47,062 nt of DNA from a virus, in IMG/VR virus record IMGVR_UViG_3300033153_006082, positions 1-47,062 of that record; one strand, written 5' to 3'. Positions 7,458 to 37,838 of the stretch are shown piece by piece. The translations under genes were made by a program, and so were the position numbers. The notes beneath the pieces are model-generated. The model was given only the letters and a program-made list of their open reading frames with translations. It was not told the DNA's origin and ran no database searches. Positions within the stretch are counted from its first letter, which is position 1; every line of letters begins with the position of its first letter.

Positions 7458-9401
7458 ATGGCGTTGATCGTAACTGAACTCAATTTTGATAATGTAATAG
7501 AAGCGATTAACGCCGCTCAATTCATTGGTCTGGACTCGGAAACCACCGGACTGTACAAACATCATGGGGATAAGATTTTTTCTTGTTCCGTTTCCACACT
7601 TGAAGAAGATTATTATTTTAATTTCAATAAAAACCCTGACCACCTTGGGGTACTTCCTCCCACTGTTTTACCCATATCCCTTATTTGTAAACTCATTTAC
7701 CCGAGCTACAGTGGGAGGATTTTTCTCATGAACCCTGTATTTGACTTGGGGATGTTTTTCCAAGAAGGGTTCGACGTATCAGAACTAAATATATATGCAG
7801 TTGAAGACTTAGCACGAATAGCTTTCAATGATCGCTTCCAAGTTGGAATGGCGGCGCTAGCAAAAGACATTGGCCTCAAGAAAATGGATGAGGTTAAGGC
7901 CTACTGTAAGGAGCATAAGCTTTATGAAAAAGTTAAAATTCAGGGAATTAAGACCGAGAAGAAACTCTTCCGATTTGATCTTGTCCCTTTTCCTCTTATC
8001 TCTGAGTATGCTTGCGTTGATACTAACGTCACGGTCAGACTAGGGATGCATTACCTGCGTAAAATTATGGCGCAGGATCAGGGGAAAACTGGGATTGGAA
8101 GTTTGGGTCATATTGTTCAAACTGGAAAGAAGCTCATTCCTATTCTTTGGAAAATGAAAGAGCGAGGGATAAAGATCGATGTTGAATACTGTACCACCGC
8201 CGCGAAGTATTACGCTGAAAGAGCGGAAGAAATTTCTAGAGAGTATACTGACCTCACCGGAATACAGTTTGTTGATTCAGGAAAAAATCACAAAGCTGCG
8301 TTTGAAAAGCTTGGTCACAAACACGGCTACACTCCGAAAGGTAATCCCTCTTTCACAGATGAAATGTTGGAGTCTATGGACTACCCCCTTGCCGATGTTA
8401 TTCGCAGGTGGCGTAAGTTCAATAAGAAGTCATCCTTCTTCTACTCGTACTTATTTCATCGTAGTCCCGATGATATCATTCACGCTAACCTCAATCAATC
8501 AGCTACAGTCACGGGACGGTTCAGTTCTAGTGATCCCAACTTACAGCAAGTTCCGAAACGTGGTGAAGATAAATATAAGTATCCCGTTCGCAGGGCGTTT
8601 ATCCCTAGAGATGGATACACTCTCTTTACTCTAGACTTCGATCAGTTCGAGTACCGTATGATGCTTAACAAAGCTGCGGAGATGGGTATCATCAAGCAGG
8701 TATTAGATGGCCTCGATGTTCACACAGCCACTAAGAATCAAATGGAGATTGACGATAGAGACAGTGCCAAGACGATTAACTTCCTGCTCCTTTATGGTGG
8801 CGGGATCGCTGTGCTTGCAAGAAAACTTTATAAGACTCACATCCCTGAACACGTTCTAAAGTTGGTTCAGAAATATTCGATGTACGAAGATTTCATGTGG
8901 GACAATATCAGGATCGCTAAAGAGTTGAACCTAGAGCTATGGGAAGTTGAGCATGGTGTGAAGATTTTGACTGACGCTAAAGAGCTTCGGGATCTTTACT
9001 TTACTAAGCTTCCTAATGTTAAAAAATATATTAAGAGAACAAGCAAAGAAGCTGAACGCGGAAAGTTATATAATTACTTTGGCCGTTGTTATACTTTTAG
9101 AAATAAAGACTTCGCATATAAAGCACCTAACTATGAGATCCAAGGCGAGACCGCTGATTGGATCAAACTGGCCATGGTTCAAATTGCCACCTATCTATCA
9201 GATAAAGAGGGATACCTACTTCTTCAGGTTCATGATGAATTGATACTAGAAGTAAAGAACGGGCACGAATATGTTGTTGATGAAGTCCGTAAAATTATGG
9301 AGAATGTAGCACCTACAAAATACCTACCTTATACGGTGGGAATGGATATAGCTGAGAAATCTTGGTACGACAAAAAGGAGTATAGGCCATGGGATTTGTA
9401 A
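7458..9401 (+). CDS. Family A DNA polymerase
   Basis: A 647-residue Pol I-type replicative polymerase with an N-terminal 3'-5' exonuclease domain (DSET with D26 and E28; YACVDTNVT as exo III) and a full polymerase domain. Motif A is DFDQFEYR with D393, motif B/O-helix is KTINFLLLYGG, and motif C is QVHDELILE with D593. ATVTGRFSSSDPNLQQVP is the conserved thumb/palm signature. No 5'-3' exonuclease domain is present, as usual for phage enzymes. It should be the genome replicase, working with the prim-pol/helicase. Confidence 0.96.
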   Translation: MALIVTELNFDNVIEAINAAQFIGLDSETTGLYKHHGDKIFSCSVSTLEEDYYFNFNKNPDHLGVLPPTVLPISLICKLIYPSYSGRIFLMNPVFDLGMFFQEGFDVSELNIYAVEDLARIAFNDRFQVGMAALAKDIGLKKMDEVKAYCKEHKLYEKVKIQGIKTEKKLFRFDLVPFPLISEYACVDTNVTVRLGMHYLRKIMAQDQGKTGIGSLGHIVQTGKKLIPILWKMKERGIKIDVEYCTTAAKYYAERAEEISREYTDLTGIQFVDSGKNHKAAFEKLGHKHGYTPKGNPSFTDEMLESMDYPLADVIRRWRKFNKKSSFFYSYLFHRSPDDIIHANLNQSATVTGRFSSSDPNLQQVPKRGEDKYKYPVRRAFIPRDGYTLFTLDFDQFEYRMMLNKAAEMGIIKQVLDGLDVHTATKNQMEIDDRDSAKTINFLLLYGGGIAVLARKLYKTHIPEHVLKLVQKYSMYEDFMWDNIRIAKELNLELWEVEHGVKILTDAKELRDLYFTKLPNVKKYIKRTSKEAERGKLYNYFGRCYTFRNKDFAYKAPNYEIQGETADWIKLAMVQIATYLSDKEGYLLLQVHDELILEVKNGHEYVVDEVRKIMENVAPTKYLPYTVGMDIAEKSWYDKKEYRPWDL

Positions 9402-9604
9402 CACCTATTTTAAATAACCACGGGATTGAAGAAGTCTCAAAATTTAAGGCAAGGCTTAAAGACATTCAACAAATAGTTGATAGTAAAATCGACGACCCTA
9501 GAATTAAAGCAATCGCTACGACTATGTTGGAGGATTTTGCTCTTAGGGTAACCGATGGAATTGCAAAGAGCAAAGCTTGCCACGAAGAAATCCATAAGCA
9601 TTAG
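9389..9604 (+). CDS. Small hypothetical protein
   Basis: A 71-residue helical protein with no recognised family. It overlaps the polymerase end by 13 bases and has AAGGAG about 9 bases before its ATG, so coupled expression with the polymerase is likely. Confidence 0.65.
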   Translation: MGFVTPILNNHGIEEVSKFKARLKDIQQIVDSKIDDPRIKAIATTMLEDFALRVTDGIAKSKACHEEIHKH

Positions 9605-9613
9605 GAGGGAAAA

Positions 9614-10030
9614 ATGCAAAACGAAGAACCAGAAATTAATGAAGAACAAAACGAGATGGATCTAGGTGAGAAAACCACAGATGCAACTAATGAAACTGAA
9701 GCGGAACAAGAAGAAGCTGCTATTGAGACTGCTTGGGAAAATGATTCAGCGAATCCTTTTTGTAAGATGTTCTGCTGGGGTGAAGAGAACGTAATGCTTC
9801 TCGAAAAGCACAAAAATAATTTCGAGCAGTTGATGTACGACTTCTATCAGAAGTTCCTAGGCTACCCTTTGTGGTCAGTCCACGCTACAGTCACAGATAT
9901 TAACGAACTGGAAACTACCTCTATTCGTATCTACAATGATTACGTTAAGGCCTGTAGAGAGCAGCAGGATACAACTACTGAAACTCTTTACGCGGTCAAG
10001 CTAGTTTTTAAATTAGATACTAGTGGCTAA
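9614..10030 (+). CDS. Hypothetical protein with acidic N-terminus
   Basis: A 138-residue protein. The first 45 residues are highly acidic (repeated E, with N/T/D), followed by a folded-looking part with CKMFCWGEEN and several aromatic residues. The family is unknown. The ATG follows AGGAGGGAAAA, a strong ribosome site. Its last bases overlap the VRR-NUC gene. Confidence 0.65.
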   Translation: MQNEEPEINEEQNEMDLGEKTTDATNETEAEQEEAAIETAWENDSANPFCKMFCWGEENVMLLEKHKNNFEQLMYDFYQKFLGYPLWSVHATVTDINELETTSIRIYNDYVKACREQQDTTTETLYAVKLVFKLDTSG

Positions 10031-10328
10031 ACAGAAAGAGACCCGATTCTGGATGAGGATCAAGCCCAAGTTGAAAGAGCTTGGGTGGTTTTTTAAGGTA
10101 CAACTTATTGCTAAGTGGGGAGTGCCTGATGTGATAGGGGTGATAAACGGAAGGTTCGTTGCCCTTGAGCTTAAGAAAGATGCAAAAGGTCATGGGGGAG
10201 ACGGTGAGAAATTACAACTACACGTCCTCTCCTTGATTGCAAAAAATGGTGGTTACGCTAAAGTTGTATTCCCTGAAAATTGGGGAGAGACTTACGAAGA
10301 ACTTAAGAGTCTCCAAGCATTGCGATAA
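10023..10328 (+). CDS. VRR-NUC domain nuclease
   Basis: A 101-residue single-domain nuclease of the VRR-NUC (PD-(D/E)XK) fold. Catalytic residues read as D36 in GVPDVIG, E49 and K51 in FVALELK, in the canonical spacing. Phage proteins of this type are proposed structure-specific or Holliday-junction nucleases. The start is GTG at 10023, inside the end of the previous gene, without an obvious ribosome site; coupling may drive translation. Its 3' end overlaps an antisense nuclease gene. Confidence 0.85.
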   Translation: MAKQKETRFWMRIKPKLKELGWFFKVQLIAKWGVPDVIGVINGRFVALELKKDAKGHGGDGEKLQLHVLSLIAKNGGYAKVVFPENWGETYEELKSLQALR

Positions 10329-14447: not shown

Positions 14448-14870
14448 TTAGTACATCATCCGTGGGTTTTGCCCACCCATTTTTGACCAGTAAAGTCCAC
14501 CCTGTCTAGGCTGTTGTACTGTTGCATTAGCTGCTTGTGAATTTCCCATCGGAGTCATCGAACCAGTATTAGGTTGTCCTCCCCCCATTCCGTTAAAAGC
14601 ACCTGCTTGATTCATCATAGCGCCTGTCATTCCCCATTTTAATCCTGCATCTACAGCACTAGGTTCCTGAACATTCTTACCCTGCATTCCGGTCCACGGT
14701 GACCACCTAGTTTTTTCAGCTTCCGCTCGGGCCTGTCTTTTTGCGCGCGGCTTATCAATCAATTCATTTTTCGCGATACCTGCGCCCATCATAGCAAGCA
14801 TTGGCCAGAAGCCGTCTTGTGATTTAAGGATTAATCCTAGGAAGGTAACGAAGTTATTTAGTAGTTTCAT
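14448..14870 (-). CDS. Small virion-operon protein with WSPWTGM motif
   Basis: A 140-residue protein with a hydrophobic N-terminus (LLNNFVTFLGLIL and FWPMLAMMGAGI), a basic linker (PRAKRQARAEAEK), the motif TRWSPWTGM, and a Gly/Asn/Gln/Met-rich low-complexity tail. It is probably a structural or ejection-associated protein judging by its neighbours. AAGGAA upstream. It overlaps the GNAT gene end by 17 bases. Confidence 0.6.
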   Translation of the reverse strand: MKLLNNFVTFLGLILKSQDGFWPMLAMMGAGIAKNELIDKPRAKRQARAEAEKTRWSPWTGMQGKNVQEPSAVDAGLKWGMTGAMMNQAGAFNGMGGGQPNTGSMTPMGNSQAANATVQQPRQGGLYWSKMGGQNPRMMY

Positions 14871-15219
14871 ATTTTAATTCCTTAAGCATAGAGATAAAAC
14901 CGTTGCCGGTACTGACTATATTAAAACCGAAATCGTTAAAAATCCGGACTTTTCGTGTGGTAACCACAGGGTTTTTTACCCAAATATTGCAAGTCATGTG
15001 CTTGCAGTTCAATTCTTTAGCAGTTATTTCCGCTAATCTTCCAAGCTCTTGCCCGCCACCAGATTGTCTTTGATCCTTATCAACAAACATATCGGACACA
15101 AAAAACTCGCTACTGTTGAGAACTTGGTAAGCAATGAAGCCTTTGCTGGTTTCGATAACGTGCTTATCTTCTTCTTCAATCCAGTATTCCTTAAATCTAT
15201 TTTGCACTTTCTTCCTCAT
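14854..15219 (-). CDS. GNAT-family acetyltransferase
   Basis: A 121-residue protein with the GNAT acetyl-CoA motif A, FVDKDQRQSGGGQELGRLAE (R/Q-x-x-G-x-G type), and a final beta strand NDFGFNIVSTGNGFISMLKEL. Its target is unknown; lying among virion genes it may modify a virion or host protein. It overlaps the Hint-domain gene by 23 bases. An alternative GTG start at 15207 has GAGG 6 bases upstream and may be the real one, giving 117 residues. Confidence 0.75.
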   Translation of the reverse strand: MRKKVQNRFKEYWIEEEDKHVIETSKGFIAYQVLNSSEFFVSDMFVDKDQRQSGGGQELGRLAEITAKELNCKHMTCNIWVKNPVVTTRKVRIFNDFGFNIVSTGNGFISMLKELKYETTK

Positions 15220-16381
15220 TAAGCATTACCAGAAGTTCGTCCTGTGAATGCTTCTCACAATCATCATGTTCATGGAGGTCAGCAAAAACCATATCTTTAA
15301 TTTTCAACCTGTGGTTCTTAGTAGCAGGACTGTAAACAGTCGCCCCTCGTTTTACTTCCACGGCCAACTCGGAATCTTGAACTCTGATCCACTTACCGTT
15401 TTCAAGGACAGCGTGACTACCTACTACATTCACTCCACAGTAGCTATAGAAGCTAGGGACAATTGCCTTAACTAAAGCGTAAACCGCTCCACCTAACTCA
15501 GTCTCCATCCCTAGGTCTAGATGTTCTACTTTAATTATTCTTTCCCCTGTCAACTCGATAGGAGTTCCAGCGAGGAAACACGAAGAAGATTGTTGAGCAT
15601 TACCTGTAGCGATAGCGCCTCGGGCCTGCATATCTTCACCGTAGTTAACAGTTCTCTGTGTGTTGATGCCTTGGTAATCTTCTGCAAGTCTGTTGACATT
15701 TCTTCCGCCAATTGTTTGTTCTACTTGACCGGTCTGACCTAGAAGCTGATTTTTCATCGCTTCATCTTGCATTGAAATATTTAGATTAGCGTTAGCGTCT
15801 TGCGCTCCAATATCTTGACCAACTCTCATTAGTCCTTGAGCGCCTTGTCCTTCCAATCTTTCAGCAGCACCTGAACGTAAACCACCCCTCATAGCTAAAT
15901 TAGAACGAGCAGAGTTTAGGCCTGATTGGTTTTGCTGTTGGGCCATATCCCTAGCTCTTTGGGTCATTAACCCCTGCTGATCTCTGGCCAAAGCTGCTGC
16001 TTCGGTATCACCCTCGGTCATACCTTTATTTCGTAAGGCCTCATACGAAGGCCCCATTGTTTCAGTGAACTGTTCCCCTAACTGACCTTGTTCGGTCTGC
16101 ATAGTGAGATAGTCTGGGCGCTTAACACCGTACTGGTTCTTACCTCCCCCAACGCGCATAAGCCCTGATTCATCTTTAGTTAGATAATCCCCAGAATCTA
16201 TCGCATTTCTTAGTTGGTTTTCTATATTCCCTGATAACTGACTACCGTATTGCTGTGCCCATTGTGGCAACGGATCGGCTTGTTGGGGATCTACAACATT
16301 ACCTTGGTCATCATAGTACTGCTGAATAGGATTACCCTGCTCATCATAATATTGTTGTTCAGTCGGTTGTGGTTGACCCAT
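15197..16381 (-). CDS. Virion protein with C-terminal Hint (intein-like) domain
   Basis: A 394-residue protein. Residues 1-265 are Gln/Gly/Ala-rich with repeated YYD.QGN units at the start and many short helices, typical of an internal virion or adaptor protein. At about residue 268 a Hint domain starts abruptly with CFLAGTPIEL (nucleophile Cys after SSS). It continues through a GVNVVGSHAVLENGKW block (the block-B-like His region) and ends at FADLHEHDDC. There is no terminal His-Asn and no C-extein, so splicing is unlikely; N-terminal cleavage is more plausible. The ATG at 16381 follows AGGAGAAAGTG. Confidence 0.78.
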   Translation of the reverse strand: MGQPQPTEQQYYDEQGNPIQQYYDDQGNVVDPQQADPLPQWAQQYGSQLSGNIENQLRNAIDSGDYLTKDESGLMRVGGGKNQYGVKRPDYLTMQTEQGQLGEQFTETMGPSYEALRNKGMTEGDTEAAALARDQQGLMTQRARDMAQQQNQSGLNSARSNLAMRGGLRSGAAERLEGQGAQGLMRVGQDIGAQDANANLNISMQDEAMKNQLLGQTGQVEQTIGGRNVNRLAEDYQGINTQRTVNYGEDMQARGAIATGNAQQSSSCFLAGTPIELTGERIIKVEHLDLGMETELGGAVYALVKAIVPSFYSYCGVNVVGSHAVLENGKWIRVQDSELAVEVKRGATVYSPATKNHRLKIKDMVFADLHEHDDCEKHSQDELLVMLNEEESAK

Positions 16382-16391
16382 CACTTTCTCC

Positions 16392-17111
16392 TTAAGGGTT
16401 TTCTTCTATGCCCATTTCCCAGTAGTACGACATATCTTTCTCAATTTCGTTGTCTCCGTCAGGAGTCATATTGGTTAAAGTATTAACCATTTGTTCACTA
16501 AAATATTTCAACATACCAAGGGCAGCGGTAAGTCTTGGGTCGCCTTCTTTTTCGTAGCAGCGAACCTTAGCAAACTGAATAACGAAACTAACAAATTCTG
16601 GAATATCACAGTAAGAAGAATCATCTTCCATTCTGTTAGCGTTTCTTAAATAAAATAATTGTAGAACGTCGGTTATTGATTTATACGGTTTAGGGATCAT
16701 GTGGATATAAGGGAACTTTAGAACACCGTTAGCAGCAGAGTCGTTGAAAAGAGCATACTGGTAAACGTCATCCTCTACTAATTCCTCATAAGCTAGTTTT
16801 TCAAAAAGAGCTTCAGAGTTCTTAAACCTTTTAATCGTATAAACATCAGTACCGTCATTATAGATTAGGCCACGTATTTTAAGGCCGTAGATATTTGTTG
16901 GGAGAGTTACTTCTGTATCATCCTTAACAACACTTAGTTTTTGTCGGGTGAGAAAGTAATCTTCATATAAGGTGTGGATTTGTGCTTCAGCGTCGTCGAT
17001 AGCCTCGTTGACATAACCTATAAGTTCATCAGGAGTAATAAAAGTTTCTTGTTCGATTCCTAGGTCTCGACGAACTTTTTCTCTGATCTCTTTATATGTC
17101 CAATATTTCAC
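16392..17111 (-). CDS. Head-tail connector / tail adaptor protein
   Basis: A 239-residue protein with the look of podovirus adaptor proteins: an N-terminal helix KYWTYKEIREKVRRDLGI, a middle with LTRQKLSVVKDDTEVTLP and a FPYIHMIPKP strand, and a C-terminal helical part ending in a flexible acidic tail. It would bind below the portal and join head to tail. The GTG start at 17111 overlaps the TGA of the upstream gene (GTGA), with GGAGAG 7 bases before. An ATG at 17135 would add 8 residues but lacks a site. Confidence 0.65.
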   Translation of the reverse strand: MKYWTYKEIREKVRRDLGIEQETFITPDELIGYVNEAIDDAEAQIHTLYEDYFLTRQKLSVVKDDTEVTLPTNIYGLKIRGLIYNDGTDVYTIKRFKNSEALFEKLAYEELVEDDVYQYALFNDSAANGVLKFPYIHMIPKPYKSITDVLQLFYLRNANRMEDDSSYCDIPEFVSFVIQFAKVRCYEKEGDPRLTAALGMLKYFSEQMVNTLTNMTPDGDNEIEKDMSYYWEMGIEENP

Positions 17112-17605
17112 GGTAAACTCTCCGTTAGTTCCCAAGTCATGAGAAGGTCGTAATTATCTGGGTCACCAACTGCTGTGTTTAAAAATGTCTTAAAAAATAG
17201 AAGTGCTACTTCATTACAGGTCAATGCTTTATAGTTTTTTCCTAGTCTATTGTACGACATAAACCCGAGAAGTTTAAGCGCCAATCCAATTATCTGACCT
17301 TTATCGTAGTGCAATCCTTCTATATCTTCCACCCATTCTAGGAACTCCTTACGGGAAGTGTCAACTTCAAAGGTTTTTAAATTAACTAGCCGATAGTCTT
17401 GGAAAAAGCTGTAGGTTGTACGGTCTCGAACCCCTTTTGACGTACTATCTAGGCATTTTTCTCTACCAGTTTCGCTCTTAAAAATGAGGCAAAAATGGGA
17501 ATAGGAGGACCGCCTCCAAGGAGGCATTTTCTGAAAAAGCATTATGACCCAAGCAAAAATTGGGAAACGCATTTTAGGACGTACAGTGCAAACCACTATC
17601 TTCAT
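17108..17605 (-). CDS. Papain-like (permuted NlpC/P60-type) protein
   Basis: A 165-residue protein with the arrangement of circularly permuted NlpC/P60 papain-like enzymes: an early His in SSYSHFCLIF, a strand/turn region with KGVRDRTTYSF and YRLV, a helix DKGQIIGLALKLLG, and a late Cys in KALTCNEVALLFF. Such enzymes are amidases, peptidases or acyl hydrolases; in a virion operon this one could cut cell-wall or lipid substrates during entry, or process a virion protein. The fold call is from pattern only. Confidence 0.55.
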   Translation of the reverse strand: MKIVVCTVRPKMRFPIFAWVIMLFQKMPPWRRSSYSHFCLIFKSETGREKCLDSTSKGVRDRTTYSFFQDYRLVNLKTFEVDTSRKEFLEWVEDIEGLHYDKGQIIGLALKLLGFMSYNRLGKNYKALTCNEVALLFFKTFLNTAVGDPDNYDLLMTWELTESLP

Positions 17606-35937: not shown

Positions 35938-35987
35938 GATAACAGAATGCATCAAATAACTTGGTGCATAGAAAAAGGGATATGTTT

Positions 35988-37838
35988 ATGTGCGAAAAAT
36001 GTAATGATTCAAAGCCAATAGATTCGGCTGAATCGGATGAAGATCAAATCTTTTACTGCGATGTAACAGGGGACGAAACACCTAAAGGCGATTTACAGGC
36101 CGTCACTAGTAGTGGTGGTGTTGCCATGAAAGTTTGTCCTAGTGAGTTAAGAGAAAACTTCTTTAAGTGTAGTGACTGCGGCGGCTATCATCACGACGAT
36201 AATCAACGCTATATAGAAAACCGTGATGATGTTTGCGATGATTGTTATTGTGAATCTTATTTTCACTGCGATGACTGCGGCTGTAACCACCACCAAAATG
36301 ATTATAATAGTACATGCGACGGTGGTGTGTGTGATAATTGCATCGACAACTATGAAAGGTGTGAAGAGTGTGGTGAGCGTAGTGCCCTTAATTTATCCGA
36401 AGGTGAGGAGTGTCCTAATTGTGGTCACTGTAGTTATAGTGACAGTGAAGAAGATTATGGGATCATATACCACTACGATTATCGCCCTGATTTTGTCACG
36501 TTCGGTACAGCTACAAAGAAAAGCCCATTTTTAGGCTTTGAAATTGAAATAGAATCAAGAAATGATCGGGAAGAACTAGCGCAACACTGTAATGACTCTT
36601 TTATAGACTGTTATTTAAAAAATGATGGTTCACTAAACGATGGTTTTGAAGTTGTATCAATGCCTAAAACTTTAGAAGAGCATCGAGAAAGCGGCTATGA
36701 ATCCGCTATGAAAAGAGCTATTGAATTAGGGGGCAGGTCGCACAACACCGAAACGTGCGGTATCCATGTTCACATTGATAAAAGCGCGATGAGTGAAGCG
36801 CATAAAGTCAGATTCGGGATGTTCTTTGCTCTATGCAAACCTCAACTAGAGGTTTTGGCTAGGCGTGACAGTCAACGGTGGTGTGAGTACAAGGAAATAA
36901 CTCGAAACTTTAGAGACTATAAAGAAAATGAGGGTGATAGGTATGAGGCTATCAATTGGCTTAATCGTCCGACCGTGGAAGTAAGGATTTTCAAAGGGAC
37001 GTTAAAATATTCTACTTTCATGGCCTCTATGGAATTGTGTCACGCTGTTTATAATTTCACCATGGACAAGCATTCTTTTTCGACTCACTTAAACGATAAG
37101 AAAGTGTTCAATCGTTTCTATAAGTTTGTTTTAAAGAATCGTCACGAGTACATGGTTCTAATTAACTATATAGATACTAAAGAATATTTTACCGACGAAA
37201 TTTTGAATAGCGCACCTAATCCAGCAAAGGGTATTTATAAAACTGATACTCCTAAAGAGTCGCTTTATAAGTCACTTGCTATGGATAATTTCAGTGAGCT
37301 ATCTTGCCAAACATTAGCAGATTTTTCTAGTGTACTTCAAGAGACTAATGAATCTATTCAATTTTCTAATCTTTGCACGCTCCTAGTAAATCTAAATTTT
37401 AGTCATTCTAGAATACTATCAGTCTTACAATGTTTCAGAGAGTCGGATATTTTAAGTGAAAGGTTTAATTCTGATAATAGAATGTACAGCTTAAAGGAAT
37501 ATTTAGACAGTATTAGGAGTGATACTCTTGATAGCTTGACTGATACTAGTCGCCTTCGCGCCCACTTAGGTTTAAGTTTATTATTCGGTACTAGTGCTGT
37601 TAATTCTATTACTCAAATTGCAGTCGATATTCTCCCCGTAGGTATTTACGATAGGTATGAAGCTCTAATTGATGCGTTGACTACTCTTAATTATACGCTT
37701 GAAGCTATCCGTGACATTTTAGACTGTATAGTTGCGTCTAATTTCTACGGTACTCACTTTAATAATAACGTACGTGCCACCGATTTAGTTAGCTACCTAG
37801 CTCAATTAGCTAGTCGCCGGTATGCTGTCTCTTTTTAA
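35988..37838 (+). CDS. Zinc-ribbon amidoligase
   Basis: A 616-residue protein. The first 150 residues hold many CxxC pairs with His (CSDCGGYHHDD, CDDCGCNHHQND, CDNC, CEEC, CPNCGHC), probably several zinc ribbons. The middle is an Amidoligase_2 domain (ATP-grasp/glutamine-synthetase-like class): GFEIEIES near 183, KNDGSLNDGFEVVSMP, CGIHVHID at 257-264 and VEVRIFKGTL near 330. The last 230 residues are helical and unassigned. Amidoligases join an amine or ammonia to a carboxylate using ATP. The ATG at 35988 is chosen for AGGG 8 bases upstream. The next gene is a glutamine amidotransferase. Confidence 0.85.
   Translation: MCEKCNDSKPIDSAESDEDQIFYCDVTGDETPKGDLQAVTSSGGVAMKVCPSELRENFFKCSDCGGYHHDDNQRYIENRDDVCDDCYCESYFHCDDCGCNHHQNDYNSTCDGGVCDNCIDNYERCEECGERSALNLSEGEECPNCGHCSYSDSEEDYGIIYHYDYRPDFVTFGTATKKSPFLGFEIEIESRNDREELAQHCNDSFIDCYLKNDGSLNDGFEVVSMPKTLEEHRESGYESAMKRAIELGGRSHNTETCGIHVHIDKSAMSEAHKVRFGMFFALCKPQLEVLARRDSQRWCEYKEITRNFRDYKENEGDRYEAINWLNRPTVEVRIFKGTLKYSTFMASMELCHAVYNFTMDKHSFSTHLNDKKVFNRFYKFVLKNRHEYMVLINYIDTKEYFTDEILNSAPNPAKGIYKTDTPKESLYKSLAMDNFSELSCQTLADFSSVLQETNESIQFSNLCTLLVNLNFSHSRILSVLQCFRESDILSERFNSDNRMYSLKEYLDSIRSDTLDSLTDTSRLRAHLGLSLLFGTSAVNSITQIAVDILPVGIYDRYEALIDALTTLNYTLEAIRDILDCIVASNFYGTHFNNNVRATDLVSYLAQLASRRYAVSF

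Follow-up and report, generated by a model that had tools for sequence, protein, structure and literature searches.

Hint-type autoprocessing is already known from signalling proteins, from inteins and from bacterial intein-like (BIL) domains, the type A and type B classes of the latter being defined by a Cys at position 1 together with a His-Asn pair at the C-terminal end. In Hedgehog autoprocessing the general base is Asp303 (Hint position 46), which both holds Cys1 back and activates the attacking alcohol (PMC9163320). BIL domains without a +1 nucleophile mainly perform cleavage, and class 1 inteins ending in Asp exist but are rare (PMC7664689). In the open-access full-text literature we found no description of a Hint domain that regularly forms the C-terminal end of phage structural proteins. 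New in this analysis are a family of such Hint domains, an invariant Asp within it, its link to GNAT-fold genes and an exchange of Hint for another domain at the junction with the carrier protein.

The window, meaning the whole stretch of DNA analysed, comprises 47,062 bases and derives from an uncultivated virus record. It encodes tailed-phage proteins (terminase large subunit, tail fibre, DNA polymerase and primase), with further matches to a podovirus-type capsid protein (distant) and to an internal virion protein. The capsid protein has 0 matches among GenBank phages, and no cultured relative of this phage family was found. A predicted amidoligase-type enzyme is encoded at 35961-37838 (phrog_16683, 5.5e-37; phrog_2443 amidoligase, 6e-9), on the strand opposite to the structural genes. 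The Hint-tailed gene lies between an SU10-type head-tail adaptor gene and a small GNAT-fold gene, and the features of this locus are:

16392..17135, minus strand: SU10-type head-tail adaptor gene (SU10_adaptor PF24175, E 1.2e-10), upstream of the Hint gene
15197..16381, minus strand: complete gene, stop included, encoding the 394-aa Hint-tailed protein; ATG at 16381
15581..16381, minus strand: N-terminal part, residues 1-267, Gln/Ala/Gly-rich; presumed virion (head-tail or ejection) protein, from synteny and homology
15200..15580, minus strand: Hint domain, residues 268-394 (HMM 122 bits, AF2 pLDDT 95.7, PDB matches)
15578..15580, minus strand: Cys268, Hint position 1, expected nucleophile of an N-S acyl shift
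15413..15415, minus strand: His323, block-B His of the TxxH motif (V-G-S-H in the window, T-G-x-H in the family consensus)
15278..15280, minus strand: Asp368, equivalent to the C-terminal Asn of inteins (conservation and structural alignments); proposed general base
15200..15277, minus strand: conserved 26-residue tail after Asp368 (E371, N388; predicted helix), from conservation and the AF2 model
14854..15219, minus strand: small GNAT-fold gene, 121 aa, likelier start GTG at 15207, sharing about 20 bases with the 3' end of the Hint gene
14448..14870, minus strand: 140-aa protein, hydrophobic at its start and bearing an SPWTGM motif, downstream of the GNAT gene; kept in the related contigs L025 and L101

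The original prediction placed a 394-residue gene here, ending in an intein-like domain that starts at a Cys near residue 268 and runs to the stop. The reading frame is real, with an AAGGAG-type ribosome site before the ATG at 16381 (an in-frame GTG at 16384 is also present) and a stop at 15197-15199, and the Cys does stand at residue 268. The N-terminal part is 55-57% identical to its counterpart in L101 as far as the junction and is also homologous to that of L025. Given this homology and the position of the gene after the SU10-type adaptor, the N-terminal part is probably a virion protein.

Searches of Pfam, PHROGs and NCBIfam with the single window protein gave nothing significant. An HMM made from 15 other viral proteins, with the window excluded, matches the Hint segment of the window at 122.7 bits (E 5.5e-40), far beyond chance, as 500 shuffled versions of that segment reach 6.4 bits at most. 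Among 16 relatives, Pfam matches are to Vint (12 of 16), Hom_end_hint (10 of 16, best 3e-6), Hedgehog Hint (8 of 16) and Hint_2 (4 of 16). Sequence matches of family members in the PDB are PI-SceI and the N. equitans intein, the best being block A of PI-SceI (6e-5). The AlphaFold2 model of the window domain has a mean pLDDT of 95.7 and a pTM of 0.89, and its best structural matches in the PDB are all Hint domains (VIA Z up to 13.9), comprising Tetrahymena BIL2 (6y75), the C. thermocellum BIL (2lwy), Tetrahymena Vint (8r2c), inteins and Hedgehog (1at0); a family that did not appear among the VIA-align matches was not taken as absent. By profile and predicted structure, residues 268-394 are a Hint domain, with the Hint fold and within the Hint superfamily, as had been proposed for the segment from Cys268 to the stop. 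The nearest predicted viral structures are two uncharacterised proteins in BFVD (A0A5J6VLR4 and A0A5J6VNZ4, 21-25% identity), filed under Megaviridae environmental samples. Either the domain has a wider host range, or these neighbours come from phage contigs that were mis-binned.

Searching with a degenerate DNA pattern that encodes the motif HAVxE[ND]GKW retrieved 18 viral contigs, all of which have a Hint domain at the end of an open reading frame, and another pattern brought the total to 35 non-redundant Hint copies. This sampling is biased, as copies with an altered block B are missed; most contigs are fragments, and statements of absence apply to the records examined. All 35 copies lie at or near the C-terminus of their reading frame and share a family-specific conserved motif, E-[DN]-G-x-W-x-R. 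Short fragments aside, the parts in front of them sort into about ten groups that show no similarity to one another in BLAST at 1e-4. VrlC, a tail protein of T4-like Kyanoviridae relatives, makes up one of these groups. Hint tails on many unrelated phage proteins are a previously undescribed family. On the Hint tree the N-terminal families change 10 times for 10 families, about once each, so recent jumping of Hint between carriers has been slight. No match to the window protein or four relatives was found by tblastn in 50,697 GenBank phage records, and a scan of 84,980 bacterial and archaeal species genomes with the Hint pattern gave 28 matches, none of them Hint, so that no bacterial or prophage copy was seen.

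In the carriers, linker or glycine-zipper segments directly precede the Hint domain. About nine copies have a glycine-zipper-like hydrophobic stretch right before the Cys (a Gly-zipper_Omp match in L034 has E 0.011), and the window protein has none. Such segments stand immediately before the Hint Cys in L004, L006, L008, L009, L016, L050, L054 and L058, and their placement looks as if scission by Hint would expose a membrane-active C-terminus. Two loci have unusual reading frames. In L025 the Hint protein is spread over two overlapping frames (9190-9840 and 9722-10327), with the N-terminal part split near an A-rich stretch; an indel from sequencing or assembly may be the cause. At L030:10401-10877, on the same contig as L019, the next open frame holds a further Hint copy, which is degenerate and has neither Cys1 nor the block-B His.

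Cys1 is kept in all 35 copies, and the search pattern did not impose it; the block-B His is also present in 35 of 35, but is imposed by the pattern and hence is not independent. The first residue of the TxxH motif is Thr in 19 and Ser in 6 of the 35 copies and Val in the window protein, and the block-F His is found in 29 of 35. Where inteins have a penultimate His, the complete members have Ala (25), Ser (6) or Thr (3) and never His (0 of 34). The next position, that of the intein C-terminal Asn, is Asp in 34 of 34, and a +1 Cys, Ser or Thr is found in 0 of 34. These two positions are Ala367-Asp368 in the window protein, which bears out the reading that the His-Asn end is lacking. In structural alignments, model residue 104 (Asp368) is where the shared core ends, paired with the final Asn of gp41-1 (125), MchDnaB-1 (145) and Mtu RecA (440). 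The absence of a C-extein, also part of the original prediction, holds as well: the 26 residues after Asp368 are part of the Hint domain and not a C-extein, because they are conserved family-wide (E371 and N388 in 34 of 34) and are predicted to form an ordered helix. No split C-extein was seen in the genes after Hint.

Because Cys1 and the block-B His are kept and the His-Asn end and +1 nucleophile are lost, the first half of the splicing chemistry appears to be retained and the second half lost. From this residue pattern, an N-S acyl shift would be expected in the Hint tail, and splicing is very unlikely. Self-cleavage and activation of the virion part for attachment to another molecule had been offered as alternative outcomes, and the residues allow both. 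The invariance of Cys1 and Asp368 suggests retained chemistry; an Asp that is invariant rather than random points to a kept function.

The phage domains resemble BIL domains in fold (VIA Z of 13.9 for Tetrahymena BUBL BIL2 6y75 and 12.9 for C. thermocellum BIL 2lwy) and in having Cys1 without a +1 nucleophile, so that cleavage would be expected over splicing. Unlike BIL domains, they are always C-terminal, on virion-type proteins and with a GNAT neighbour; the BIL2 structure carries a C-terminal Asn (6y75 is the C1A-N143A construct), whereas the phage domains have Ala-Asp and lack the pair of Cys1 and His-Asn end that marks BIL types A and B. Similarly to Hedgehog Hog (1at0), in which a C-terminal Hint uses only the N-S acyl shift, an external nucleophile and an acidic general base, the phage domains are C-terminal and have a compatible residue pattern. 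In contrast to Hog, they have no sterol-recognition region and only 26 residues after Asp368, and their acidic residue is at the intein-Asn position rather than at Hint position 46, with about 15% identity overall. Vint (PF14623, 8r2c), known from eukaryotic VWA-Hint proteins, is the top Pfam model by number of members and among the best structural matches. The window protein nevertheless scores 14.8 bits against its cut-off of 27 and has no VWA match, and the viral carriers are of structural type. Inteins (PI-SceI, gp41-1, MchDnaB-1 and Mtu RecA) share the fold and blocks A and B, but the phage domains are without endonuclease and lie C-terminally on their carriers; of the features of class 1 splicing inteins, the C-terminal Asn, for which Gln or Asp rarely stands in, and the His that normally comes before it are replaced by Asp and Ala, and the +1 nucleophile and C-extein are absent (0 of 34).

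In the nearest relative of the window phage, L101, another domain stands in place of Hint, and the exchange falls precisely at the Cys. Its adaptor is 59% and its 753-aa structural protein 60% identical to those of the window, and its protein tracks the window protein until just ahead of the Cys. From there it reads GG-CIITTV... and enters an unrelated domain, which likewise begins with Cys:

L101:6601-6966: Cys-first C-terminal domain replacing Hint (SGG-CIITTV...)

This tail is similar to the C-terminal end of gp49 from Roseobacter phage CRP-1 (E 5e-5). Like CFI-box-CTERM (NF041770), which is not a Hint, it begins with Cys after a flexible C-terminal linker; the match to that family is weak (E 0.1, far below the family cut-off) and membership is not claimed, and CRP-1 gp49 itself gave no CFI-box match. 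L101 is also missing the GNAT gene. Replacement of Hint in the L101 line is the simpler history, because the more distant L025 (adaptor 41% identical) has both Hint and GNAT. As a different Cys-first domain stands at the same junction, the comparison suggests, as a lead, that the carrier may need a Cys-led tail rather than Hint as such. The L101 domain is possibly an unrecognised self-processing tail.

The GNAT-fold protein of the window matches Acetyltransf_7 (2.6e-5) and Acetyltransf_1 (21.6 bits, cut-off 20.7), and has RQSGGG at the acetyl-CoA motif R/QxxGxG/A. Two GNAT subfamilies occur beside Hint genes: A3, the window type, whose profile matches acetyltransferases in the PDB (best 1.6e-6), and A4/A5 (AF2 pLDDT 93.4; Foldseek matches are GNATs). 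When each locus was tested with profiles from which it and its close relatives had been left out, 29 of 35 Hint loci had a GNAT-fold gene, directly adjacent or overlapping at 25 and at 1.3-2.05 kb in the four of the VrlC group, and there were 0 further matches elsewhere in 1,994 ORFs (470 kb). The remaining six loci have no recognised GNAT. Hint and GNAT are jointly absent in three comparisons of the same N-terminal parts (L101 with the window, L106 with the L041 group, and VrlC of the Kyanoviridae phages Mosig, OC and Melnitz with L055), for which whole records were searched and positive controls included. Mapped onto the Hint tree, the GNAT type switches 3 times, and its labels are far more clustered than in shuffles, a clustering that inheritance within phage lineages also predicts. 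We dropped the idea that this GNAT is exclusive to Hint, as L092, L093 and L094 carry it without Hint in similar gene surroundings. A tandem of both subfamilies follows one Hint gene in L021/L022 (10368-11178). A small protein like the one that follows GNAT in the window, hydrophobic at its start and with an SPWTG-like motif, is also encoded in L025, L052, L039 and L101.

We favour, with a probability of roughly 55%, a reading in which this C-terminal Hint on a phage structural protein would work in a Hedgehog-like and not an intein-like manner, forming a thioester at Cys268 that is resolved by a nucleophile activated by Asp368. After folding of the Hint domain, Cys268 would attack the Ser267-Cys268 peptide bond with the help of His323 (N-S acyl shift), which would leave the virion part as a thioester on the Hint domain. 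Asp368 would then act as general base for an external nucleophile, which could be water or a partner's amine or alcohol group, and the virion part would be released with a new C-terminus, plain or conjugated. With neither the penultimate His nor the Asn nor a +1 nucleophile present, the C-terminal splicing reactions would not take place. Conservation of Cys1 (35 of 35) and of the Asp (34 of 34) across about ten unrelated N-terminal parts supports this reading, and Hedgehog Asp303 offers a precedent for an acidic residue in a Hint active site, in an analogy that would be functional only, Asp303 being at a different sequence position. The constant C-terminal placement behind linker or glycine-zipper segments, the tendency of BIL domains without a +1 nucleophile to cleave, and the exchange of tail domains at the junction in L101 also favour it. 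Against it are the Val in place of Thr in the window TxxH motif, the existence of Asp-ending class 1 inteins, which leaves C-terminal cleavage a small probability, and the fact that conservation of the block-B His is not independent.

The GNAT linkage raises the possibility, which we regard as tentative, that Hint and GNAT form a two-component conjugation system: GNAT would pass the acyl group from the Hint thioester to an amine, or acetylate the freed Cys1 amine and so lock the thioester, and the virion protein would end covalently attached to another molecule. The presence of GNAT beside 29 of 35 Hint loci and nowhere else in the 470 kb, its absence from all three Hint-less comparisons, the linkage of both subfamilies to Hint, the few GNAT-type changes on the tree and the loss of the acetyl-CoA-binding RxxGxG in some partners (L014, L024) favour such a system. 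However, GNAT relatives occur without Hint in three contigs, six Hint loci are without a recognised GNAT, the gene is distant in the T4-like group, the window GNAT retains R-x-x-G-x-G, and gene order inherited within lineages could explain part of the linkage. On similarly speculative grounds, the two genes may constitute a phage cassette in which the Hint thioester would be moved by the GNAT-fold partner to an amine, carried either by another component of the virion or by a molecule of the host cell envelope. In unrelated phages the cassette would be attached to different structural or ejection proteins, and some of these phages would swap it for another Cys-first tail.

If Hint were instead catalytically silent, it would be a folded tail for docking or assembly of the virion protein. 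Its constant C-terminal position, the conserved E-[DN]-G-x-W-x-R motif and tail, and the still-open frame of the L030 copy fit this view, which we consider unlikely in light of the invariant Cys1 and Asp368 on unrelated carriers, the sole copy without Cys1 being adjacent to an intact one. Asp368 could also drive C-terminal cleavage in an atypical BIL- or intein-type process that frees the 26-residue tail. Its alignment with the intein C-terminal Asn speaks for this, as do the known Asp-ending class 1 inteins (PMC7664689), but no member has the penultimate His or a +1 nucleophile, and the conserved, predictedly structured tail is unlike a disposable extein, which makes it highly improbable. Just as hard to credit is an intein-derived module acting as a parasite, which would move from one virion gene to another and do nothing for the phage. 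Such a module would account for the many unrelated N-terminal parts and the absence of Hint from a close relative, but there is no homing endonuclease and no splicing, so that a C-terminal insertion would not be silent, and the little recent jumping on the Hint tree and the strong conservation also argue against it.

Together with the many unrelated carriers and the GNAT pairing, the invariant Asp points to a step of self-processing or conjugation while particles mature or DNA is delivered. If active, the Hint tail would be a natural thioester-generating tag that works without splicing. These observations suggest that phages with Hint and GNAT cut or chemically tag their own particle proteins.
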